Positions 29,118-64,000 of a stretch of 64,000 nucleotides of DNA are shown one piece after another (within the stretch, counting starts at the first letter, position 1; each line of letters starts with the position of its first letter). The position numbers and the translations under genes were made by a program. A model generated the notes under the pieces. The model ran no database searches, was not told the origin of the DNA, and saw nothing but the letters and a program-made list of their open reading frames with translations. The DNA is from Cladocopium goreaui (lineage: Eukaryota > Sar > Dinophyceae > Suessiales > Symbiodiniaceae): NCBI GenBank assembly GCA_947184155.2, contig CAMXCT020000916.1, positions 68,361-132,360 of the forward strand. The letters run 5' to 3'.

Positions 29118-29269
29118 TGTAGATGCTCTATGCAGGCAATGCAAACATCACATGGCAATGCACACACCGTTTTAACCTGAAGTGGACTCTTGTGCCTACA
29201 GTGGCCACGGATCCATCGTGACTATGCGTTCAGCCAAACTGTGCATGCTGAAAATGGAGTGCATTTACA
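29118..29269 (-). repeat. 3' LTR of the copia element
   Basis: 152 bp, starting TGTAGATGCTCT and ending GCATTTACA on plus. It matches 41,207-41,358 base for base as far as I can read. It is short for a copia LTR but within range. Confidence 0.92.
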
Positions 29270-32200
29270 CTGGTCTAAAATCCTGCTGGTTTTTGTCCTG
29301 CCTTGGCATGGTTTTCAGAGGCAGGCTCAACCAGCCCGAATTAATCCTACCCCACCACTCAGTTGGCTTGAGTCTCTTGGTTAGAATGTCGGCCAACTGC
29401 TCATGCGTCGGTAACCAGTGAAGCGGTGGCCGAAGAGGTCTTTCTGGGGTTGGTTTAAATTCTTCTCCATGCTCCTGGCGCCACTGATGTTCCGCTTCTA
29501 TCATCAGTGCTTGTCTCAATCCGGCCAAGTCGATGGCCAAACGCTTTTCTGCCGGAGCACGTGGCACTCCTTCACGATGAATGTGGTCATAGAGGCTGCG
29601 ACAATCTGTCACAAGATGGAGAGGGAAGAATTGCCCTCCTTGATGATCAGGAACTCGGGCTCCGGTCGCAAATGAGATATAGAGCCCGCGCAAAAACAAA
29701 GCCCCTTCCAATCCCTCGCTGCACGCCATTGTTTCTCCAGCAAAGGTGGATCGGCAAACACGGTGCGCCGCTTTGCTCTTCCAGTCTACCAAGCTAAATC
29801 TGCCACCCTCGTTTCCCAAGCATGTTATATCAGCCAGCAAGACTAAGGATCCCAATTGAGATGCAACTTGATGATCACCGATCCAGTCGAAATCCTGTTC
29901 TTCACCCGCATCAGGTTGCGTGTTTGCCCACGCAGCGTCGTGGTACGCCAAGAAGCACAACCTCTCCTCCGGGATTTTGCGCAGTGTAACCCCGCAATGT
30001 TGGAACTGGATCGTGTCGGTGACTGCCTTGTTGGTTTGCTTGAGATCTGCTATGGATGGAGTTCGCTGTTTCTTTTGAGCCTGGCACACCTGGAACTGGA
30101 TGTCTGGCCGTGTCTGTTTTGCTAGCCAGGAAAGACACCCAATGACGGCTCTGTTTTCTTCTATTTGTTCAATTGATGCTTCTTGTTCTTCACTAACTCC
30201 TTGCTCGATGGTGACTTTCTCAACACGGCTCTTTGCATAGCCGTGCTGGCTGATGACAACCTCCTCTGCTGAACACTTGTATTCACAGCCCACATACTCA
30301 AAAGTGTCCTCCTCCCACTCATCCGCTGGAAAGAGGCGCTTGAGCTCGGACTGGATGTGCTTCGCCAGTCCATTGGGTGCCATCAGCATGAGGTCGTCAA
30401 CATGGGTGAGCAGCAAACCGCAGACTGACTTGTCTGCTTCTTTGACAAATTGGAAAACGCAGGGATCAATGACATTCTGCACAACGTGGTAGGTGTCCCC
30501 CTCATGGTCCACCTTCATTTTGCGAACATCACCAGAGAGCTTCATCCACCAAAGCTTAGGGCTAGTGCTGAGTCCAAAAACACCTTTGAGAACCTCGATC
30601 AGCTGCCCGGGCTGCAAGCCAGGGATGCCCCTTTTTGGTTGGCGAAAGTAAAGCTCCCTCGGTGCTGGGATGCCGTTGAGGAATGCCGCCCTGATGTCTC
30701 CAACTGAGACCTTCCAGCCCCGATTCAAAGCAAGTTGCAAGGCCAAAATGATGGAGTGTTTGGATGTAGTCGGTGCATCCGTTGCCATGTCGACCTTCCC
30801 CAAATCGGGGTCGTTCTGTCCAGCAATGCAAAGTCGTGCTTTGGCACGTGGAGGCACGCTAGAATCCACCTTCCGTTTGGCATAATTCTTGTCTCGGCAA
30901 ATGAATCTTGAATTGAGCACCCGGTCGGGCTTGATACGCTGGAAGACTTCTTCGCTCTCTGCAAGGCTGAGGGGCTTGACAGCTCCAAACTGGAGGTGTT
31001 CGTCCCATTGTTTTTGCTCTGCCTCCCGATACAATTGACGTTCATCAGGAGGAATCAATTGCCATGGGATCTCCTTCTCCAGTTGTTTCTCCTTGCCCTT
31101 CTCGGAGATCGCATGTTTCATCATGAAGACCTTTCTTGGTTTCTTGAGGCTGATGGGCAGGTCATCCAAGGCTTGCCGATGCCTCACATGAGCTTCTATC
31201 TCTCTCTCACGCCGCTGTGCCTGTGCTACTGGATCATTTGGATGGTCCTCCTCCATGGCGAGCTCTTGTTCTATCTCTCCATCACCAGGTTCCCATTCCA
31301 TCTCTTCCTTTTGATCCTCCTCCTCATAGTCTTGGTCAATGATGTCATCATCCGCATTCTCCACAACCTTCCGTAGCTCAGCTATCGACGCCTTGATGCG
31401 CAGCATCTCTGACACCTCCTCATGATGAGCTGTTCGTAGGTGTTCTGGTGCTGCAAGCAGGCATCGTCCGCCACGAGCCACCCAAAAGTTGTGACCTTCT
31501 TTCCCGATGACGGTTCCGGGACCGATCCATGTGCTGCCGCTCTTCTTGCCCTTTCGTTGCCGTAGTTCTCGGTGTATGAAGACCAAATCACCAGCTGCAA
31601 AGTCTTGTTTTTCAACCCGTGCTTTGTGTTGTGCAGCTCGTTGTAGTGCATCTTTGGTTTGACAACGAAAGAAGGCTGAGCGAGCCCCCAGGCGGATGGC
31701 GTGAGAACGACTCACCTTCTCATCGGCCGTGATGTTATCCAGCTCCTCAGGTCCTAGGTGACTATCAAACAAGTCACCTGCCATCTTCATTTGTGTACCA
31801 AAGACCCATTGCCTTGGTGAGTATCTTGACTTGTTTCTGAGCTGGTTCTTCGCATCGCTGGTGCATGCCACTGCCTCTGTGAACTCCTCGTCGGTGACCG
31901 TCAGGTCTTCGACGAGCTTCTTCCAAATGTTCTTCCAAGTGGCACCATGTCTCTCACAAACACCGTTTTGCCAGTGTGCCTGCCCAGCGGCGCATCTCAC
32001 AATGACGGACCGGCTGTCCATCAGCTGCAAAAATTGATCTCGAAAGCCGGAGTCGAGATCGACCAGCAAATGTTTTGGGGCTCCCGCCCAATTGATCCAA
32101 CCCTCCAACATAGCTCGGGCCAGCTCTTCTGACTTGGTGCTGGCCACAGGAATCACCACCTGGTAAGTGGAGGCGAGGTCGATCACATTCAATGCCGGCC

Positions 32201-34228
32201 TATTGCGGCTGTTGGAAGTATCCAGCCAGATCACGTCCGCAGCTATGACCTCATTGAAGTCCAATGCTACACATGGATGCGCCACCCTGGAAGACGCTGG
32301 CCTCGTACTTCGCTCACATGTCCTGCAGACCATTTGCTCTGCTGCTCGGATCACATTGTCGGGAGCACCCCCAATCCTCAGGTGTCGTACGAGATCACGG
32401 TTGGGAGGGTGCCCCAAGTTCTGGTGGATCCGCTTCAAAACTGAAGCGATCTTGGGATTGACCTTGCCTTTGAAAGAGATGGCCGCTGCCCCGAAACTAT
32501 CGGGCTCCCAGTCCTCCTCCTCTAAGGCCTGGAGTTGCTCGTCGTTGGCATCTTCAGCTCGCGCAAGATCTGTAGGGAACTGGACAAAGACCCTGTTGGG
32601 GCAGCGCCAGGCTTGGTCAGCCGCTCTTACCACAGCATTGGCAAATGCCGTGGGGTAAACGGCAGTCCATGCAGTGTCTCGCCCTTGTACTGGTCGATGA
32701 TCATGGCTGCCATCTTCACATTTCTGTGCGATGTTGTTCCCAAACGTGGTGTTGTTGGTGAGCAGAGCCAACGGTTTTCTCAGTGGCCGCCCATCTTGCA
32801 AGCTTCGGAGGCCAAACGTACAAAGATCTACCTCAGCAAATGTTGCCGACACCCCCACAAAACGCTGAAGTGCCGGATGTCGCCAGAGATCACTCCCCTT
32901 GGGGTTCTCAATCACCGCAATGCCACCCAAAGAGTGTTGTAGTTCAAAAACCCGTGCAGTGAAGTTCACCAAGGCCCCTTCTCTCTTCCGAAGACGCCGT
33001 AGTTCTTGCTTCTCATAGTTCAACCTCGAAAACTTGCACCAGTATGTGCAGGGTGGTGCCATCCAAAGCAACTTGGGTCTGTGCTCCAGGATTTCACTGA
33101 GCACCTCCTCCTGCTGACTCCGTAGTTTGAGGTTGTGGTCATACTTCAGGTCTCTAGGTTGGAGCACTGCTCGGTGTCGTTTGGCATAGGCGCTGGATAT
33201 CCTGGCATGTCCAGCAAACAGCTTAAGGCAATCAGTCCCTCCATTGTCTCGTTCATAGTGTCGAGGTTGTAGAACTGCCCAAGCTTCCCAAAGTGGATCT
33301 GCCATGACCTCATGTGCCCAGCCGCCCATTGCCACTGTGCATGCCAAAAGCACCGTGCAGAGCCCCTTTGCTTGATCTTTCATGAATTGCGTGGTACTTC
33401 TTCTCGCCATCTTCCGCCGTTTCATACCAGCCCTGGCTCTCGCCTTCGGGGACCCACTACGCGGCCCATCACCAGACGATTCGCTGCTGCTAAGCCCGAG
33501 CATCACCTCATTCACAAACACCTCGTTCTCATCCGGAGAGTCGTTGGTGTTGGTGTCATACTTGGCCTTATAGTCACCAGTGCAAAGCCCGACTGTGTCC
33601 TTATACTCAGAGACCTTGCGCTCATCCGGAGCGTCGTCACCGCTACACACATACTTTACCTCATAGTCCAGACCACCCATCGGTTTCAGCACTGTGGCAT
33701 CCTTGCTTTCAATCTCCTCCTCCCGGATGCCCTTGGTGTCGGAGATTTCACCACCAGCTGCACTGCTCAGTTGGGATTGCGCTTCTTGAGCGCTGAGATC
33801 CTGTCCTCCAACTTCTTGATGGTGAGGTTCGGATCCTCCCCCTCGTCCTCCAGATCGCTGTCGCTGATGATCTCGGGTCCCCGACGAGCCACCCCCCGAC
33901 GTGAGGAGCAGCCGCTGACCCTGCTCCACGAAGCATCTGAGTACCCCCCATGGCGACCGAGGTCCTTCATCTTGGGTGGAGGCACCACCGCATTGGCTTC
34001 CGGGTCTTTGGCCACCTCGGTCGAGCTGCTCGCTGTCTTCTGACGCCGTTCCACTTCTCCCTGCGCCCATGTGGCGAGCCTCACCAGATCGGGTGAGGAG
34101 TTCGGGTTTGCCTTCACCTCCTGCATGCTCCATTGGAGATACCCCAGCGGGACTTCTTGATACATCCATCCCTTGAACTTGCCGAAGGTCACCAAAGTCT
34201 GCCCTGGGGTGCTCTTCACATCGCGGAT
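29265..34228 (-). CDS. Copia pol: integrase, reverse transcriptase, RNase H
   Basis: The long frame (34,169-29,265, 1,634 codons) contains, in order: a methyltransferase-like block with LLWMAPPCTYW (about residue 369) and VIENPKGSD; an HHCC zinc motif, RIHQNLGHPP...CRTC (about 576-610); an rve integrase core with DVIWLD, VDLDSGF and NGVCERH (Asp, Asp, Glu; about 643-740); a reverse transcriptase with VSVGDIRAAFLNG and the catalytic LLTHVDDLML (about 1,255; HVDD in place of YVDD); and RNase H with WKSKAAHRVCRSTFAGE, VTDCRSLYD and HEQLADILTKRL. The true N-terminal reading lies in another frame from 34,228 to about 33,780 (TFGKFKGWMYQEVPLGYLQW), then shifts into the long frame near 33,780. Upstream of that point the 1,634-codon frame is therefore out of register. 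It makes the enzymes for copying and inserting the element. Confidence 0.9.
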
Positions 34229-34587
34229 GAGCCTCCCAGAAGATGAGGTTAGGTTAAAAAGGTGCTTTTAGGCTATTTTGAAAAATTAGTCAACTTTCTG
34301 CCTATTAGGTAGATCATGTTTAACCTTGAAAAGGTTATTTGATCAAATAACCTTTAACTATTTTCAAGGTTATTCATACAAGTTACCTTTGTTTTTGAAG
34401 GTTATTCATACAAGTTACCCTGTTTTTCAAGGTTATTCATAGGACTTGCCTTTTTCCCCAAGGTTATTTATATCATCTACCTGGGTGTGCTTGCTTTTAT
34501 GCTTATGTCAACAGCAGCCAATGTGACAGTACGCACGTATTGGTTTGAGTTTCTTTGTTTCAGCAAGACCAGCAAGTAAACATGGTT

Positions 34588-55626: not shown

Positions 55627-58600
55627 TCAATCTCCCATGGTGGATTCCATTTGCGGGTCCCAGCCGGGCCCCGCCCCGGCCTCTCGGACGGGCTTGGCTC
55701 CCCGCAAGCCGCGGTCCATGCGATCGATCTCTTCGAACATGGCCTGATTTGGTTGGGACATAGATTGGACCCTTCAAAATGGTGGTGTTACATAGATTGA
55801 ACCCTTCAAAATGGCTGGGATATCCCAGAACTAATGTGCATTCAAATGGAAAAACCATGAAAAACATCTATCATTCGAGGGATTTTCCAGCAAACTGTGT
55901 TTGATTGCCAGAGGGTAACCATTGAAAGCGATTGCCAGCGAACACATGGAATCTTTTGGATCAAAACCTTGGTACTCCCGGGCAAAATGGGTCTAGGAAC
56001 CACCAAATAAGATCATTCAAGGCTGGAAAACCAGTCCCCATTTATTTAGAAAATTAATTCCAAAAAAAAGTCTAGTTTGTTTGTTTGTCAAAACATGGTC
56101 AGAGCGCCCGCAGGAGCGCTGTACTGTTCGCGATTTTCAAAATGCATTTCTTCACATCTTATCCACAAAATTGTAGAAAACGCATGATTTTGGACACTTA
56201 TCATCAAAAATTGTTGACATGCACATGTGCAAAAACGTGGAACCGCGCGCGATCAAAAATGAGTGCTTTCATCAGAATTCATTGTGTTTTCCCATGTATT
56301 TGCAGACCCCGTCGTAAATCGCTTGAATTTCAAAACTGTTTTTCTACTTTCCATGCCGTTTGTCTTGACTGAGCTTACCCAGGCTCTTGAAAACGTGGCC
56401 CTCATTGAAGCGACGCCACTGTCCACTCCATAGGTATTTCCACAATGCGATTTCTTTGATTTTCCCTTTGGATAGCAGGTTATATGTTACAGCCAGCGTA
56501 CATGACGTTATCACACCCACCCCACCCCACCCCAACCCCACCCCCACGTGCAGACGTGTTAGCAACGTAGCCAGCGTGGCAGACATGTGTGCTGCAAGTG
56601 ATTACATGAAGTAGCACAGCGTAGCAGGTCATATAATACGCCAGCATACATGACGTTATCACACCCACCCCCCCCACCCCACCCCAACCCCACACCAGGG
56701 TCCCAGCGGTGATGGAAGGAATGTTGAAAAAATGGGAAAGCGTTGCGCTCCTCGAGGCGCTCACACCCCAAAACATAGAAAAATCGAAAAAACAACCAAT
56801 TCAAACATGACACATAACTACCATAGTTTGATAGTACACGTGGTTTTCCCAAAACGAAGCACAGCTAGTTCATAAGTATTAATAGCAAACATACATGCAT
56901 CTAATTACCATACCCTCTGGTAAACTAACATAACTATGGAAAATCACCATTTTTCATGGGAAAATCCACTATTTCTATGGCCATTTTCAATAGCTATGTT
57001 AGTTCACCAGAGGGTATGATCAACAAACAATGAGCAAAAATGACTGGCAATCAAGGCATAGGATAAAAAAAAACAGTGTCTGTCACAAAAAGAAACGGCT
57101 CTTGCGCCTTGGCTGTACGAACAGCATGGCAGCCGGTACGAAGCGTGGTTGGTGAATTTACGAAGCCATATATTGGTGCCCACAGGTTTCAATTCACAGA
57201 AGTCCTAATACACCCAAGAAAAGTCTCTTCGCCCGATTTTATCAAGTTTCCAGAATGAAACGAACAAACACTGCAACAAGGTTTTAACATGAGTAGGAAG
57301 GGATTTTGAGGTTGAGCTGGGTTGCAAGTTTCAATCCGTGATATTTCAGTTGTAATCCATCATTATCCCACTTGCTATGCCCACCGATTGGTGGTTGGTA
57401 ATTGGATATCCCCACCAGTGGCAAAACCCTTGCACCCACCGTCCAAAATTCATTGTGTGAGTGGCGGACGATTTAATTTGTTTAGCAAATATTCCATAAA
57501 CAAATAAGGTTGTCCCCTCTCGGTTGTGAAGATTTTGCACACCCGGCAAGGCGAAACAATCCCATATGCTCAATGTATGGAATATTTACCCTCTGGTAAT
57601 TTAACATAGCTATTGAAAATGACCATTTATAGTGGATTTTCCCATTAAAAATGGTGATTTTCAATAGCTACGTTAGTTTACCAGAGGGTAACCCAACATC
57701 TACCTCACGGTCGTATGGGTCAACTTCGATACTCCCGCCACCCTGGAGCACAGGGACTCGCGTCTCATCGTCGTCGAAGCCCGCCTGCCAGGCTGCCAAG
57801 GCAAAAGATCTTCCCTACATCCGGACCCTGTGAAGATGGTTAGGACAAGTAACTATAAGAAATACATACAACTATTATGTTTATGTTTATGGGTTATAAG
57901 TTGATTAGTAACTAACCATATTGGTTGAACATAATCTTATGGGAAGAATATGGTAGAATAGACCAAGTGAAGTTCTTCTGTTCGTAAATGCGCTGTTTGG
58001 TTTGTATATATGGCAAATAACAGGACAATAGCACCTATGTACTGGCAGTCACTCAAGCACGTTCGACTAATTTGAAAAATCGTGATAACAAGTCTTGACG
58101 AAATAGTTGGTTAGTAAGTTAGTATACAGTCTACATATGCATACATATGCAATGTATGTCAAGAACATTCAAGTTGTAAAGAGAAACTACCCATCCTCCC
58201 GTCTACCCAAGTGTGACTGGGTGTGATTACCCCACAGGCTACACAGGTATGAAATGCTATGAATAGGATAAGTCCGGATGAGACGCACTATGAAAGTGGA
58301 TCATCCAAGCTCATAGCTAAGTATTTTCGCTTACTGATGGAGTTACCCTCTGGTTATGTCAAAATAGCTATTGAAAATGGCCATTAAAAATAGTGGATTT
58401 TCCCATGAAAAATAAGGTGGATCTTTCCATAGTTATTGTTAAATTACCAGAGGGTAAGCAACAAAAATGGAGATTTAGTGGGATCTTCTGGGATCTTAAT
58501 GGGATGAGTATCACCAAGCGCTGCAGGATTTCTGAACTACTGAAATGACTGAAATAGATAGCTCCAGCTCGAGCTTGATTAGCCTGCGGGTAACCAGCAT

Positions 58601-58862
58601 CAGAATCCACCGTGTTGAGATATTTTGCATGTGGAAACATGGAAGTGTCCATTTCCACCCCAGTTTCTGCAAAGGTATGGTCCATGTACAGAAAATTATG
58701 GCACCCCCGGGTTCACACCAAATTAGCTTGTCGCCTTCACATAGGAAAATCAGAAGAACTGACCCATCCGCATTTGGGTTTGTCTTCCAATCATCTACTG
58801 CTTAAGGTGCACCTCCAGCTTCTGCTCCCTGGAACGCACCAGGAAGGGGTGATTTACCAAGC
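55627..58862 (-). CDS. Unidentified five-exon gene (minus)
   Basis: Exons with GT-AG borders and consistent phase: 58,862-58,813 (LVNHPFLVRSREQKLE), 58,666-58,595 (KLGWKWTLPCFHMQ...), 57,814-57,704 (RSFALAAWQAGFDDDETRV, then SIEVDPYDRE), 56,465-56,379 (GVDSGVASMRATFSRAW) and 55,743-55,627 (AMFEEIDRMDRGLRGAKP ... ESTMGD, stop). Donors are GTGCAC, GTTACC, GTAGAT and GTAAGC. The last exon begins with an amphipathic, charged helix; the rest is acidic to mixed. No signal peptide or membrane segment is evident. The first exon opens at an acceptor, so the 5' end lies further right, towards the viral insertion. I do not recognise the family. The frame of the 58.6-kb exon is the least certain. Confidence 0.5.
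56500..56700. repeat. 148-bp duplication with C-rich ACCCC tract
   Basis: ACATGACGTTATCACACCCA occurs at 56,500 and 56,648, each followed by a CCCCACCCCAACCCCAC run. The duplication lies in the intron just upstream of exon 56,465-56,379. Confidence 0.8.
56913..57014. mobile_element. Palindromic MITE (family 1), copy A
   Basis: 102 bp, from CCCTCTGGTAAACTAACATA to the inverted TAGTTCACCAGAGGG, flanked by TA on both sides. Almost the whole element is self-complementary. It lies in an intron of the unidentified gene at 55.6-58.9 kb. TA flanks fit the Tc1/mariner (Stowaway-like) class. Confidence 0.88.
57589..57688. mobile_element. Palindromic MITE (family 1), copy B
   Basis: 100 bp with the same ends (CCCTCTGGTAATTTAAC / GTTAGTTTACCAGAGGG) and TA flanks. 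Its right end is 15 bp from the GT donor of exon 57,814-57,704, inside the intron. Confidence 0.9.
58346..58454. mobile_element. Palindromic MITE (family 1), copy C
   Basis: 109 bp, CCCTCTGGTTATGTC to GTTAAATTACCAGAGGG, TA flanks. It lies in the intron between exons at 58.6 and 57.8 kb. A decayed relative (ATAACCAGAGGG) is at about 58,965-59,013 and another at 55,890-55,917. Confidence 0.88.
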
Positions 58863-59096
58863 CTGCGGCACGGAGGATAAAAAGCTGTAAAGATATATGC
58901 TCAAGTTATTTAACGTAGCCAAAAAAAATCATTAAATTTAATCTGTTTATAGCTAAACCATCAATCATCCATGGGCCATCTATACCAGAGCTATGTTAGT
59001 CATAACCAGAGGGTAACCCTCAATGCCATCCTTGTATGGGTACCATATAGGGTCAAGCTAGGCTGAACATCCGGAAATATATGGGAAAAAAATGGA

Positions 59097-59330
59097 AAAA
59101 TGGGGGTTTCAGGGCGTATATGTTTGTATGTTGCTTGTTATGATTTTGTGTTGGGGTTCAATGTTTCATCTTCGCCTTTGATGTTTTTTCAGGTGGGGTT
59201 TTGGGGGTAATTTTGTTGCTAAAGTGATGTGTCAATGTTTGGATTGAAGGGGGGTAGGATTTGTTTAGGCTGTTGGGGTTTTTGTTTGTGTTTGGGTGGG
59301 TGATTACTTCATAGTATGTGTTGTTAAGAT
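59097..59330. other. G/T-rich block, candidate left terminus of the viral integrant
   Basis: The plus strand here is almost entirely G and T with little A or C (TGGGGGTTTCAGGG, GGGGTTTTGGGGGTAATTTT, GGATTGAAGGGGGG). It lies between host-type sequence with a MITE remnant and the first viral gene. A terminal inverted repeat is expected at such a place in Polinton-like elements, but the partner end is outside the window, so this is inference. Confidence 0.35.
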
Positions 59331-59346
59331 ATTATGAATTAATCAT

Positions 59347-59823
59347 TTATGCTTTCCACTTTCCTATTCCATCCCACCAGTGTTCAATCACTCTTATTTG
59401 TGTTAAGCAAGGTTTGTTTGTATCATTTAGTTCATCCATTGCTATTGATAAAAGCGTTAGGTTGATAATCATAGCGTTGAATTTTCCATCTCGGTTGAGT
59501 TCCTTTCCACAATCAATGATGACTTTTTTATCAGTGAGGTTTTCATACATCTTTTTCATTATATCAAATCTTACGAATGAATATATTATCATTCCATTTA
59601 CTCCTTCTGCTTCTTTCATCCTATCAATTACTTTCTTCCAAAACTTTTCTCCTTCCTCATCATCTGGTGAAGGCATAGGATGGCACTTTACAAAGTCTCT
59701 AATCTTTTCATCTTCTTTTTCTATTTGTTTTCTTTCCCAATCATCGTCCTCACTATCACTACCAAAGTCAGCATATATACCAATATTCCCTGTATCTATA
59801 ACCTCAATTTTTGCTCTACTCAT
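59347..59823 (-). CDS. Viral-type protein of unknown function, 158 residues
   Basis: Intronless, AT-rich. The N-terminal third is acidic (FGSDSEDDDWERKQIEKEDEK); the C-terminal half alternates hydrophobic strands and helices (VNGMIIYSFVRFDIMKKM, KVIIDCGKEL, AMIINLTLLSIAMDEL). No family is recognised. Its start is preceded by the same TATATATAGTAGTAAGA-like motif as the two genes upstream of it on minus, so the three are probably controlled together. It is the gene nearest the presumed left end. Confidence 0.65.
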   Translation of the reverse strand: MSRAKIEVIDTGNIGIYADFGSDSEDDDWERKQIEKEDEKIRDFVKCHPMPSPDDEEGEKFWKKVIDRMKEAEGVNGMIIYSFVRFDIMKKMYENLTDKKVIIDCGKELNRDGKFNAMIINLTLLSIAMDELNDTNKPCLTQIRVIEHWWDGIGKWKA

Positions 59824-59826
59824 TTT

Positions 59827-59858
59827 CTCTTACTACTATATATAGATATTTTTTCTTT
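59827..59858 (-). promoter_or_regulatory. Promoter-like motif, 59.8-kb gene
   Basis: On minus: AAAGAAAAAATATC, then TATATATAGTAGTAAGAG, immediately before the ATG at 59,823. Shared with the motifs at 60,511 and 60,985. Confidence 0.6.
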
Positions 59859-60510
59859 AAGTATTTATCACTTTTTGTAGGTGCTCTTTTATTTCTTCTA
59901 TGTTCAAATATTTCTCATAACCGTTGAACAGTTCTTCAACATATTCACGCAAGAAAATTTCCAAAATGTTTTTTATCTTGAACTCCCTGTTTCTAAACAT
60001 AAAAGTTCGTTCAACATTAGGAAACCACCAGCATCTTCGTTGCTTACTGTAATTGATGAAATTAAGGTCGTGAAAGTTCTTTAGAATATGATAAGTGTAT
60101 TTCCAATGGTTTTTGACATAAGACTTAATCGCTTGAAGATATATCTTATCCTTTTGAAATTCTACCTTCAGTTTATAGGTGTCCAATAAAGCATCTATTT
60201 CTCTCTTCATTACTCTTAAATTTGTTCGGTCGGTGTTGGATAAATAGATAGGTGATTTTTCCATCCTTGTTTTAAAGAAATGTATTTGTTTTTCAACTCT
60301 TGTTAGTTCTTTCTCTTCAAAATGGTCGAAATGATAGCTGAATGTTATATATCTGCGTTCCTTATCATTCAACTCTTTACATTTTGAACAGTGAAGGTTG
60401 TAATCACATATCTCATCACAAATTCCAGCAGGAAAAATGTTGTTCAATAAAACCTTAATGTCAGTCATTTCTTTTTTACAACATCCACAGTTTTTATAAG
60501 TAAATAGCAT
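59857..60510 (-). CDS. Viral-type protein with Cys clusters, unknown function
   Basis: About 217 residues. CGCCKKEM near the start and CDEICDYNLHCSKCKEL somewhat later could bind zinc together. The rest is Lys/Tyr/Phe-rich and helical. The frame is open to an earlier Met at 60,531, but that extension lies on the promoter-like motif TATATACAGTAAGAGG, which precedes genes at the same distance elsewhere here, so I chose the Met at 60,510. The gap to the next gene downstream is 33 bp. I recognise no family. Confidence 0.65.
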   Translation of the reverse strand: MLFTYKNCGCCKKEMTDIKVLLNNIFPAGICDEICDYNLHCSKCKELNDKERRYITFSYHFDHFEEKELTRVEKQIHFFKTRMEKSPIYLSNTDRTNLRVMKREIDALLDTYKLKVEFQKDKIYLQAIKSYVKNHWKYTYHILKNFHDLNFINYSKQRRCWWFPNVERTFMFRNREFKIKNILEIFLREYVEELFNGYEKYLNIEEIKEHLQKVINT

Positions 60511-60535
60511 CCTCTTACTGTATATAGTCATTTTT
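60511..60535 (-). promoter_or_regulatory. Promoter-like motif, 60.5-kb gene
   Basis: On minus: CTATATACAGTAAGAGG directly before the ATG at 60,510, preceded by an A-run. Confidence 0.55.
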
Positions 60536-60559
60536 TTTAAGTAGTTTTTGGGGGCTCGT

Positions 60560-60982
60560 TCAGTTTTCGGGTTCGGGTTGGTTTTTATTTTCCCTTTCCT
60601 CCTCTTCCAGTTCTCTTATGACCATATCTATTTCACTCATTCCTTCGTTGGGGTCTTGTCCATTGGCGAGGTTTCTTAACCTCTCAAAATCCTTCACTTT
60701 GTGTCTTTCATTGGGTGGGAGGGTTTTGAGATGTTCCTTCAACTCTGTCAGGTCAAAGTATGTGTCTTCCTCTTCATCCTCATTTTCCAAAAACATTTCC
60801 ATTCGTTGCTTTTCCATCTCCATAAGTTTGTTTTCCATATATTGGAATTTCATTTGCTTCTTGTAGCACTTGCCACAAACATTCACGAAGGTTTGGAGCA
60901 AGTAGTTCCAATTAGGTTGGTTTCTATCGTTCAGGGTTATAACATCTGTCATTATACGACATCCACAGTCAAATTTAGTCAT
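60560..60982 (-). CDS. Viral-type small zinc-ribbon-like protein, 140 residues
   Basis: FDCGCRIMT near the N-terminus and VCGKCYKKQ about 25 residues later form a Cys4 pattern like a zinc ribbon. A coiled coil follows (QYMENKLMEMEKQRMEMF), with an acidic C-terminus (VIRELEEEERENKNQ). It is the first gene of the minus-strand group and starts about 90 bp from the divergent integrase gene. The function could be transcriptional, but that is only a guess from the Cys pattern. Confidence 0.65.
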   Translation of the reverse strand: MTKFDCGCRIMTDVITLNDRNQPNWNYLLQTFVNVCGKCYKKQMKFQYMENKLMEMEKQRMEMFLENEDEEEDTYFDLTELKEHLKTLPPNERHKVKDFERLRNLANGQDPNEGMSEIDMVIRELEEEERENKNQPEPEN

Positions 60983-60984
60983 CT

Positions 60985-61022
60985 TATTTAGTCTTACTAT
61001 ATATAGGTATTTTTTCTTTAAG
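60985..61022 (-). promoter_or_regulatory. Promoter-like motif, 60.98-kb gene
   Basis: On minus: AAAGAAAAAATACC, then TATATATAGTAAGAC, about 10 bp before the ATG at 60,982. It matches the 59.8-kb motif over some 25 bp. Confidence 0.6.
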
Positions 61023-61049
61023 TATATTTTTTATTGTTGATAATTTTAA

Positions 61050-61069
61050 AAAATCTAATATTATAATAT
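61050..61069 (+). promoter_or_regulatory. TCTA-type AT-rich promoter motif, integrase gene
   Basis: AATCTAATATTATAATAT, with TCTA 16 bases before the integrase ATG at 61,070. The same arrangement precedes the gene at 62,036. Confidence 0.6.
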
Positions 61070-62011
61070 ATGGCAAGGAGACTATCAAGAGATGACATCA
61101 TAAGCAATGTCTATTATAATCTTGAAACGGGCTTCGGTTCAATCAATGAGACCCTTAAGAAAGCCAAGGAGCAAGACCAGACCATCAACAGGGTGGATGT
61201 GGAAAACTTTATGAGGAAACAGCCCAACAAACAGATTAGAAAATACAGGGGGTCAAACTCCTACACCGCACCCTTCGCAAGGTTTGAATATCAGATTGAC
61301 ATAATGGATATGAAACCCCTTACCAAAGAACCAGAGACGAAAATTCCCATCAAGAACGATGAACCGAGATATGGGTTGGTGGTCATTGACATCTTCAGCA
61401 AGTTGGCAAACGTCGTCCCTATGAAAGAAAAATCCGGACCAATCACATTGTCGGCGATGAAAGAGAGTTTCAACAAAATGGGTTTTCCAATGTCCGTTTA
61501 TAGTGATAATGACCGTGCCTTCCAAGCAGGGGTAAAAGAGTTCTTTGAGAAAGAAGGCATCACTCACGTTGTCACCCTAACTCACGCCAATGTTGTGGAG
61601 CGTTTCATAAGGACAATGAAGAATATGATACACGACAGGGTGAGGTTTAATCGTGGTAGTTGGACTGTGATGTTGTCCAAAGCGTTGGATAAATACAACG
61701 ACACCGTCCATTCATCTACAAAAATGAAACCCAAGGATGCCCACGACGACAAGAACCATATGGACGTCAGGGTGAATTTGACAAGGAGGGAAAAGAACAC
61801 TCGCAAATATCCAGAGGTCAAAGTGAATGATATGGTCAAGGTCTTTGAGAAGAAAAAAGACAACTACACCGAGAGGAAGGAGTATAACTCAAAGTGGAGC
61901 AATCAATCCTACAAAATCGTCAAGATAGAATACGACGACGTCGGAAACAGAACCTTCAAACTGGAAGGATTGAACAAACCGTATTTGAGGCACGAGATTT
62001 TGAAAGTATAA
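61070..62011 (+). CDS. DDE (rve-type) integrase of a Polinton-/virophage-like element
   Basis: 313 residues. A short N-terminal helical part leads into the retroviral-type integrase core. First Asp in FEYQIDIMDMKPL (about residue 79), followed by YGLVVIDIFSKLANVVPMK; second Asp in MSVYSDNDRAFQ (about 145); Glu in ANVVERFIRTMKN (about 176). The C-terminal part has the basic, beta-rich SYKIVKIEYDD...GNRTFKLEG pattern of the SH3/chromo-like tail of such integrases. Unlike the copia enzyme it stands alone, without reverse transcriptase, and in a compact AT-rich gene group, as in Polintons, virophages such as mavirus, and related DNA viruses. It would insert the viral genome into host DNA. All catalytic residues are present. 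Confidence 0.88.
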   Translation: MARRLSRDDIISNVYYNLETGFGSINETLKKAKEQDQTINRVDVENFMRKQPNKQIRKYRGSNSYTAPFARFEYQIDIMDMKPLTKEPETKIPIKNDEPRYGLVVIDIFSKLANVVPMKEKSGPITLSAMKESFNKMGFPMSVYSDNDRAFQAGVKEFFEKEGITHVVTLTHANVVERFIRTMKNMIHDRVRFNRGSWTVMLSKALDKYNDTVHSSTKMKPKDAHDDKNHMDVRVNLTRREKNTRKYPEVKVNDMVKVFEKKKDNYTERKEYNSKWSNQSYKIVKIEYDDVGNRTFKLEGLNKPYLRHEILKV

Positions 62012-62014
62012 AAA

Positions 62015-62035
62015 AATTATCTATAATATTAATAT
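62015..62035 (+). promoter_or_regulatory. TCTA-type AT-rich promoter motif, 62.0-kb gene
   Basis: ATCTATAATATTAATAT with TCTA at 62,020, 16 bases before the ATG at 62,036, the same spacing as at the integrase gene. Confidence 0.6.
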
Positions 62036-62854
62036 ATGACAGAGGTAGTCGTAAAAGAGATTGATAATGAAGAACCAAAGGAAGAAACAATACCAGAACC
62101 AATACAGGAAGAAGCACCGAAGGAAGAGGAGAAACCAGAAGAAATAATTGAAACACCAGTTCAAGAGAAACCGCAACAAGCAACGGTAGTCCCAAAGCCC
62201 AAAAGGGTAAGACCGTCAAGGGCGAAACCACCTTTTGACCCAGAAGCATTCAAAAACGACCTTGTAAAGCAACTGAAGGAAGAACTACAGAGTGCAATGA
62301 CCGCCAGAGACACCTACAACAAAGCCAAAGAGGAAAAGAACAAAGCGACGAGAGAGAAATTGAAATCTTTAGCATCAAAAATTTGTAAAGTATTATATAT
62401 AAAAATGAACATCAAGGAACAGAAAACGGAACTCAACAAAACTGACATCTACGAAAACGTCCGCAAGGACATCAACAGAAGACAAACCGTCCATTCAAAC
62501 AAAAGTGCCAACTACAGGAGCGGAACGCCCGAAATGCCAGACAGAAGAAAAAAAGTGTATAGTAGTTATGACCACTACTACCACAACGACAGCAACACGG
62601 CAAGGATGCCAACTCACAACCATCATCTTTACCTAAAGCGTCTTCTTGAATATCACAACACCGAGCACGACTACAAGGTCTTACAAGTAAAGCAGAGGAT
62701 GAAGGAAGAGAATGAGATGCTACAGAACGAAATGACAAGGTTGAGGGAGGTGAGGAAAAATCACAGATTGGAAGATTACGGGGCGAACGTCCAGAATATG
62801 AAACAGAGAATTGATGAGTATAAACAGTGGTTGAGAGGCGATACACAAGATTAA
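62036..62854 (+). CDS. Viral-type Lys/Glu-rich protein, possibly two genes read as one
   Basis: 272 residues in one frame. Residues 1-60 are acidic/Pro-rich (EEPKEETIPEPIQEE). A basic stretch PKPKRVRPSRAKPPF and a helical region follow. From about 124 onwards another charged, His/Tyr-containing region (NHHLYLKRLLEYHN) ends in a long coiled coil (QRMKEENEMLQNEMTRLREV). At 62,387-62,404 an AAAGTATTATATATA motif occurs inside the frame, 18 bases before an in-frame ATG at 62,405. The next gene has nearly the same motif at the same distance. A second protein starting at 62,405 is therefore likely. No family is recognised; composition suits structural or DNA-binding proteins. Confidence 0.6.
   Translation: MTEVVVKEIDNEEPKEETIPEPIQEEAPKEEEKPEEIIETPVQEKPQQATVVPKPKRVRPSRAKPPFDPEAFKNDLVKQLKEELQSAMTARDTYNKAKEEKNKATREKLKSLASKICKVLYIKMNIKEQKTELNKTDIYENVRKDINRRQTVHSNKSANYRSGTPEMPDRRKKVYSSYDHYYHNDSNTARMPTHNHHLYLKRLLEYHNTEHDYKVLQVKQRMKEENEMLQNEMTRLREVRKNHRLEDYGANVQNMKQRIDEYKQWLRGDTQD
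62387..62404 (+). promoter_or_regulatory. Internal promoter-like motif
   Basis: AAAGTATTATATATA, 18 bases before ATG 62,405; compare AAAGTATTAATATATA at 62,867, 18 bases before ATG 62,885. Confidence 0.55.
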
Positions 62855-62859
62855 TATAA

Positions 62860-62884
62860 AAATCTAAAGTATTAATATATAGCA
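62860..62884 (+). promoter_or_regulatory. TCTA-type AT-rich promoter motif, last gene
   Basis: AATCTAAAGTATTAATATAT, TCTA at 62,863, start codon at 62,885. Confidence 0.6.
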
Positions 62885-64000
62885 ATGACAGCAGAAGTAA
62901 TCAACGCAAAACAGGGATTGACACGAATACCCACTTACGCAGAACTCATCAAGGAAATAGACAGGGAAAAGTTCAAAACCAATGACATCAGAAAAATCTT
63001 TGATAGGAACGCTTGGTATTTTCACGAAAGTCCGCAGGGTCAAGCACTGAACACAAACAACATCCACCCAGCAGACTTACAGCAAATGAACTTCAAAAAG
63101 ATGGCAGAGGAAGCGACCGCAAGGAAGGAAGAAGAAACACCCAACCTTGACTTTGAAGATATGACCAACTTGAGGGACGACGCCATCAGCGACTTTGAGA
63201 TGTCCTTTGACAGAGAGGCAGAGTTGAGGGAAGAGAACGAAAGGAGAGTAGCAGAACAGGCAAATTTAAGTCATTCACAAGACCACTATATGGCAAACAA
63301 AGGAACATACGACGCCGTTGGAGCAACAGCATCGGCAGGGATACAAGAAGACGAAGAATCGCCTTCAAGCAGTAGAAGCATCTTAAAGAACTTCCTTAAA
63401 TCATCCAAACCAGTCATCAAAGCAGTCGCCACAGCAGGAGGAACAGCAAAGGGAGGGTCAATAGGAGGACTAATAGCATCAAAACTGACAGACACCATCA
63501 TACCCGACGAAGACGAGGAAGAGAAACCGTCCAAGATAAAACCAACACAAAAACTAATCAACAAACAAGTCAAAAAGGTAAATCACCAAAAGAAGTTAAA
63601 GGAGGAAAAATCAAAGATGAATGTAGATGTAGTGCCCGACACCGCAGAAGCAATGGACACAACAGCAATACCAACAGCAGAAAAGAGGAAACCCTTAAGC
63701 GTGAGACAGTCCAAAGCAAAGAGGCAGAAACCAAAACCGCCAACGCAGGAGAAGAGAGAATTTCAGGAAGACCCATCCACGACCACCAAACCACCCAAAG
63801 CAAGAAGAGTAAGAGGAAAGCAACCACAACCACAAGCATTAGGAGCAACAATCAACATCCCCAAAGACAACAAGACACCCAATGTAGATGAAGCAGAGAC
63901 AGCACAGGAAGAAACAGGGGCGTCATCTTCATCAAAAGCACCAGTCAGGAAACCAGCAATGAACAAGGCAATATCACCAAGCAAGGTAGGAATACAAGTG
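62885..64000 (+). CDS. Viral-type large protein, C-terminus beyond the window
   Basis: The frame opens at 62,885 and stays open for 372 codons to the window edge. N-terminus: TRIPTYAELIKEIDREKF and IRKIFDRNAWYFHESPQG. An acidic middle follows (LDFEDMTNLRDDAISDFEM), then an apolar Gly/Ala stretch (about residues 178-208: VIKAVATAGGTAKGG, SIGGLIASKL) that might insert into or bind a membrane or capsid. After it comes a long low-complexity tail rich in Lys, Pro and Thr with basic patches (KAKRQKPKPP, KARRVRGKQPQ). The layout recalls minor virion or core proteins of adenovirus-like DNA viruses, but I cannot name it. It is in line with the preceding plus-strand genes and has its own TCTA motif. 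Confidence 0.65.
   Translation, partial: MTAEVINAKQGLTRIPTYAELIKEIDREKFKTNDIRKIFDRNAWYFHESPQGQALNTNNIHPADLQQMNFKKMAEEATARKEEETPNLDFEDMTNLRDDAISDFEMSFDREAELREENERRVAEQANLSHSQDHYMANKGTYDAVGATASAGIQEDEESPSSSRSILKNFLKSSKPVIKAVATAGGTAKGGSIGGLIASKLTDTIIPDEDEEEKPSKIKPTQKLINKQVKKVNHQKKLKEEKSKMNVDVVPDTAEAMDTTAIPTAEKRKPLSVRQSKAKRQKPKPPTQEKREFQEDPSTTTKPPKARRVRGKQPQPQALGATINIPKDNKTPNVDEAETAQEETGASSSSKAPVRKPAMNKAISPSKVGIQV

Follow-up and report, generated by a model that had tools for sequence, protein, structure and literature searches.

We report here that the right end of a 64,000-nucleotide stretch of DNA from the dinoflagellate Cladocopium goreaui (contig C916, positions 68,361–132,360; hereafter the window) most probably holds an endogenous Polinton-type DNA virus, integrated in the protist chromosome and now partly decayed. 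We named it element A and, judging from its sequence, place the probability of this identification at about 0.88. The basis seen in the sequence is the gene content, one terminus, the sister elements, a polymerase end that has lost its body, two genes that are each split between two frames, and GC-rich repeat DNA abutting the capsid gene. A first-pass annotation, made from the letters of the window, had proposed an integrated Polinton-like virus at this place. We followed the contig rightward past the window edge, where 2,500 bases are N (sequence pieces of this part are designated L009 and L010), and within 12.6 kb observed genes for a capsid-family protein, for what is probably a minor capsid protein, for a packaging ATPase and for a fibre, together with the end of a probable polymerase (pPolB), in agreement with that proposal.

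Element A spans from ∼59,102 in the window to about L010:2610, that is at least 12.6 kb past the edge and ∼17.5 kb in total. Its GC content is 0.367 (tandem array left out), compared with 0.469 in positions 1–58,900 of the window. The switch in gene style that had been placed near 59.1 kb could be refined to ∼59,102 by a match with a sister element, B: the left terminal stretch of A (59,086–59,214, no strand assigned) aligns with the integrase-side end of B (L022:7525–7398) at 75% identity over 130 bp (E 8e-18), and the end of A starts with GGGGGTTTC.

Among the genes past the edge, three are named by profiles above their cut-offs. The packaging ATPase (L009:8781–9527, plus strand) matched Pox_A32 with E 1.1e-10 and 41.8 bits against a cut-off of 22.8, so that A has the A32/FtsK-type ATPase of the Polinton/Maverick gene content. 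The fibre gene (L009:9565 to L010:1851, plus strand) lies in two frames and ends in an S74 chaperone (E 1.1e-10); phage records match this end as tail fibres at less than 30% identity. A C5 DNA methyltransferase (E 2.8e-5) is encoded at L009:6699–7331 on the minus strand. The capsid-family protein of 466 aa (L009:229–1629, minus strand), the minor capsid protein (L009:5904–6731, plus strand) and a lipase-like sequence in two frames (L009:5151–5850, minus strand) carry labels that we regard as probable, given their position, their relatives and an apparent resemblance to proteins of Polinton-like viruses (PLVs). The polymerase end (about L010:2125–2610, minus strand) matched phrog_1907 (E 1.2e-4), and the body of the gene is gone. 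The frames of the capsid, minor capsid, ATPase and methyltransferase genes are open in A. A reverse transcriptase past the edge, which the first-pass annotation had taken as a sign of some other transposon, was not matched among the element open reading frames (ORFs) scanned.

Inside the window, three minus-strand ORFs (59,347–60,982) diverge from three plus-strand ORFs (61,070–64,000, the last one continuing past the edge), which are the two divergent groups of compact AT-rich genes described earlier. The first plus-strand ORF (61,070–62,011) is the rve-type integrase of 313 aa expected of Polinton/Maverick elements. As had been claimed, it stands alone with intact catalytic residues; its frame is open, and we read the D-D-E residues by eye in QIDIMDM, YSDND and NVVERF. 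In the libraries it met the NCBIfam IS481 transposase (E 2.2e-12, 47.1 bits, cut-off 224), only rve_3 in Pfam (E 0.072, below cut-off) and retroviral integrases in PDB (E 0.018 and weaker). It has 323 homologues, and many among the 120 listed carry PF00665.

Sister elements were sought in nine further contigs that have rve places, together with their flanks. Integrase relatives were present in three of them, C3053 (element B), C259 (element C) and C109 (element D), and nothing in the remaining six matched at E 1e-4. Element B has most of the gene set of A and, in addition, a polymerase-like frame of at least 1,119 aa, the last part of which is in another frame. This frame reads YLDANNLYG, KLMNNAVYGK and IYTDTDS, which we take to be motifs A, B and C of the Polinton pPolB. 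The capsid and minor capsid genes of A were recovered in both B and C. Element C was covered only as far as its capsid gene, and a pPolB may lie beyond. Beside their integrases, C and D have helicase-type frames (AAA_30, E 3.9e-5, below cut-off). A GIY-YIG gene above cut-off occurs in C, whose two GIY-YIG-like genes are 32% identical to each other. These integrases with helicase-type replication frames (L034 and L016 of C259; L018 and L035 of C109) make up a second element type. Close to D we noted by eye a probable reverse-transcriptase-like ORF (L035:4892–7666).

The likenesses among the four elements cross. A and B share the integrase (67% over 313 aa) and the polymerase end (90–93%), whereas their capsid and minor capsid proteins are only 27% and 33% identical. 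B and C are close in capsid (86% over the 126 aa compared) and minor capsid (84%), A and C in fibre (71% over 495 aa) and methyltransferase (69%), and C and D in the helicase-type frames (81–92%) and integrase (80%); the integrases of C and D are 35% and 34% identical to that of A. From these crossing likenesses in sequence we conclude that modules have been exchanged among co-resident elements, which shows how such viruses diversify within one genome.

We found 39 relatives of the A capsid by single-sequence search and 86 by profile. Hardly any of these is named and some are fragments; the nearest, at 98%, represents 412 sequences. A tree built from 21 proteins places the A capsid among 12 that are separate from nine others, which include the B capsid and more distant relatives; B sits there on a long branch and its placement is unsure. 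The two capsids are 26–27% identical. One of eight distant relatives matched Pfam Capsid_N (E 0.025), and these distant relatives may resemble PgVV-type capsids. Scans of prokaryote contigs, and of phage records with a capsid relative as query, gave no useful match.

Two classes of promoter were noticed in the upstream regions of A, before the sequences of B, C and D were examined. The early-type box, ACTTAAAGAAAAAATAyCTATATATAGTAAGA, lies ahead of the ATG. Its CTTAAA core occurs at 7/7 early-class starts of A and B (8/8 when B ORF101 is added) and at none of 26 late-class starts, a split that is partly circular, as the early class was set after the motif had been seen, with the start of ORF224 shifted to its second ATG and PolB classed by its own upstream region. 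Two early-looking starts outside the count, D ORF186 and the C GIY-YIG gene, have a similar layout without CTTAAA. The late-type motif is TCTA, placed shortly before the ATG. In the window it stands on the plus strand at 61,054–61,057 (16 nt before the integrase ATG), 62,020–62,023 (16 nt before ORF272) and 62,863–62,866 (22 nt before ORF431).

TCTA precedes 19 of the 26 curated late-class genes (the B ATPase start was set 3 nt off, with the same outcome), and dinucleotide shuffles gave a mean of 9.9 and a maximum of 17 in 4000. For A alone, the count of 10/12 was attained in 3/4000 shuffles. The hold-out of B, C and D gave a moderate result, 11/17, attained in 9/4000 shuffles, with the B fibre left out and the start of 'B ORF184' guessed, landing close to the ATG of the homologue of C ORF194; taking the B fibre in place of 'B ORF184' gave 10/17, attained in 48/4000. 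For 63 mechanically chosen ORFs of the four elements, TCTA was the most enriched tetramer and preceded 26 (simple-shuffle mean 8.5, maximum 20 in 5000). Its frequency was 125/886 at other element ATGs with AT-rich upstream regions; at host ATGs it was 67/420 with an upstream region at least 70% AT, and 5/75 at 80% or more. The genes that miss it include the integrase, methyltransferase and lipase of C and the ATPase and fibre of B. The capsid gene has TCTA in B and C but not in A, perhaps because GC-rich, non-viral-looking DNA starts ∼26 bp before the ATG of the A capsid, with a tandem array within ∼70 bp. A ORF158, placed in the early class, has both motifs. Sites of the mimivirid early motif AAAATTGA are few: 2 in A, 4 in B and 4 in the examined part of C.

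Several results weigh against the identification of A as a Polinton-type virus. No adenovirus-type capsid maturation protease was recognised among the element ORFs scanned, although its sequence may be lost. The capsid, minor capsid and lipase are named by no library (Pfam, PHROGs, NCBIfam), and PDB gave the capsid family chance-level matches only (E 0.38 or weaker). The B polymerase frame met no polymerase family in these libraries or in PDB; it met endonuclease VII families only (Pfam E 0.001, below cut-off; PHROGs E 3.6e-5). IMG/VR viral contigs scanned with the capsid, integrase, ATPase and B capsid held no relative. Terminal inverted repeats (TIRs) were absent between window positions 58,001–61,100 and L010:1–4000, where the other end may be lost, and none was accepted in B; an inverted match in B (75% over 159 bp) was rejected, its left arm lying ∼4.5 kb outside the AT-rich element. 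TIRs are missing in about half of the published high-quality elements too (PMC10120064).

That most proteins are named by no library might suggest a large transposon of another sort, or ORFs clustered by chance. We strongly disfavour this explanation: the ATPase, the S74 fibre and the methylase exceed curated cut-offs, the gene set is matched in B, and the scanned ORFs include no reverse transcriptase. A retrotransposon or other transposon was rejected on this last observation together with the presence of the ATPase, fibre and capsid family. Closer to our identification is a Polinton that lives only as a transposon, moved by its integrase and polymerase, with the capsid genes as leftovers and promoters of its own. 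The cut polymerase, the two-frame lipase and fibre, the open integrase frame and the lack of a virion relative in viral contigs agree with such a life, but A also has open frames for the capsid, the minor capsid, the ATPase and the methyltransferase, and the first three of these genes are conserved in the sisters, as would be expected if they are still selected. We consider this explanation quite unlikely. As the polymerase is cut and the lipase and fibre genes are in two frames, the A copy itself is unlikely to be autonomous, and the two-frame state of these genes could possibly be an assembly error.

A further question is what the promoter motifs mean for an element that we identify as viral. 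TCTA could be a by-product of AT-rich spacers, or a signal that the element itself or the host uses for transcription, and then would have no bearing on giant viruses; we give this about even odds. The spacers are very AT-rich, and shuffles that keep dinucleotides already yield 9.9 of 26. The hold-out result is moderate under either choice of genes, some of the genes counted are related between elements (as are the minor capsid genes of B and C), and the five misses named above fit this explanation as well. On the other side, none of the 4000 shuffles attained 19/26, no tetramer is more enriched, AT-rich host upstream regions (at least 70% AT) carry TCTA in only 67/420 cases, and the two motifs split by gene class.

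ChlorV and CroV are reported to have TCTA as their late motif (PMC13196603), and so, where the surroundings are AT-rich, are mavirus and endogenous mavirus-like elements (EMALEs) of type 4 (PMC8547959); EMALE type 4, the type that carries TCTA, is the only one reported to respond to CroV (PMC10945749). The pattern of TCTA and early box in our elements suggests activation by a giant virus. In our working model, the early genes would start first and pPolB would copy the viral DNA; the ATPase would package the DNA into a jelly-roll capsid bearing the S74 fibre, and the integrase would insert viral DNA into the chromosome. The late genes of the capsid module would most likely be read, as those of mavirus are, by a TCTA-recognising transcription machinery of giant-virus type, supplied by a giant virus infecting the same cell. 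That the late genes are read by such a machinery is doubtful and much less certain than the identity of the element; its basis is the motif itself, by analogy with mavirus. With similar reserve, it is conceivable, if rather unlikely, that these Polintons are provirophages, whose late genes behind CroV-type TCTA promoters would be on only during infection by a CroV-like virus; the host would then carry a dormant antiviral reserve, with capsid, fibre and replication modules shuffled among co-resident elements. We found no trigger named in published surveys of such elements, and the promoter link to CroV-type giant viruses, if true, would make the trigger testable.

The remaining genes of A are as follows. 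On the minus strand, ORF158 (59,347–59,823) has an early-type box just upstream; its match to CagD (Pfam E 0.0025, 18.1 bits, cut-off 25) was taken as chance. ORF224 (59,857–60,510) was read from its second ATG, its promoter box overlapping the first, and is 69% and 85% identical in two pieces to a frame pair in B. ORF140 (60,560–60,982) is 73% identical over 73 aa to B, and its early-type box with CTTAAA occupies 60,983–61,028 on the same strand, its class assignment sharing the partial circularity noted above. On the plus strand, ORF272 (62,036–62,854) had no Pfam match, and ORF431 has its first 372 codons in the window (62,885–64,000) and ends at L009:180; 56 aa at its end align with ORF396 of B at 30% identity (E 2e-4). 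The five window proteins other than the integrase had no Pfam match above cut-off, and in this respect they are still as unrecognised as they were at first reading. Past the edge, we observed a protein with two Cys-x-x/x-Cys pairs (L009:7847–8278, minus strand) and a small ORF (L010:1883–2086). Large tandem arrays lie inside A (GC-rich, about L009:1695–4816) and beside the polymerase stump (L010:2635–5731, with a 16-bp array at L010:2635–2942), and possibly mark break points of its decay.

In the host flank, facing short TACCCTCTGGTAA-like copies that resemble miniature inverted-repeat transposable elements occupy window positions 56,909–59,016, the last one less than 100 bp from the end of A. 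Further left, a long open frame (29,268–34,253, minus strand), whose reverse transcriptase domain is of the copia type (RVT_2, E 6.8e-12), marks a long terminal repeat retrotransposon. Contig C1 of the assembly (1.17 Gb in 6,202 contigs) carries many near-identical short rve frames (E 4e-18) across 7 Mb that resemble bacterial insertion sequences, and given these a bacterial genome may be included in the assembly. No spliced-leader-like site was present in 319 kb of sequence, and the Rfam scan at gathering scores and the tRNA scan gave no useful match.

Element A belongs to an already known kind. In Polarella glacialis, Bellas et al. 2023 (PMC10120064) counted 2,535 capsid genes; they also described a separate dinoflagellate capsid group, and Haro et al. 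2025 (PMC12721341) figured a dinoflagellate Polinton from S. kawagutii. The chromatin-domain boundaries of Breviolum minutum are reported to be enriched in Maverick elements (PMC11071213). A brand-new kind was therefore rejected, and the suggestion that A may be a new lineage is not borne out, its capsid family having 86 relatives. The new parts of the finding are the possible promoter link to CroV-type giant viruses and this mosaic; in the literature on such promoter motifs we found no paper on dinoflagellate Polintons, most subscription journals lying outside the search.

The published dinoflagellate Polintons and the 'Dino' capsid group are like A in size class (15–30 kb), in being AT-richer than the host and in being integrated (PMC10120064, PMC12721341). 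They combine capsid, ATPase, pPolB and rve integrase, to which the ATPase, the integrase, the capsid-family protein and the probable pPolB end of A would correspond, a likeness drawn from published description rather than from sequence and with membership of the Dino group unproven; they differ in that the A copy is broken. Mavirus and the EMALE type 4 provirophages of Cafeteria share with A an rve integrase, integration in a protist, TCTA in AT-rich upstream regions and probably pPolB (PMC8547959, PMC10945749). Unlike them, A has a second, early-type promoter box, an S74 fibre and a C5 methyltransferase, no protease was recognised in it, and its capsid may not be of the virophage type. Dino capsids are distantly related to those of PgVV-type PLVs (PMC10120064), yet PLVs are reported to have pPolB or rve only rarely (PMC7805220), whereas A combines an rve integrase with what is probably the end of a pPolB. 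OmPLV of Oxyrrhis marina resembles C and D in an SF1-helicase-like replication frame and C in its GIY-YIG genes, but its recombinase is of the tyrosine type and it lacks the rve integrase that C and D have (PMC12721341).

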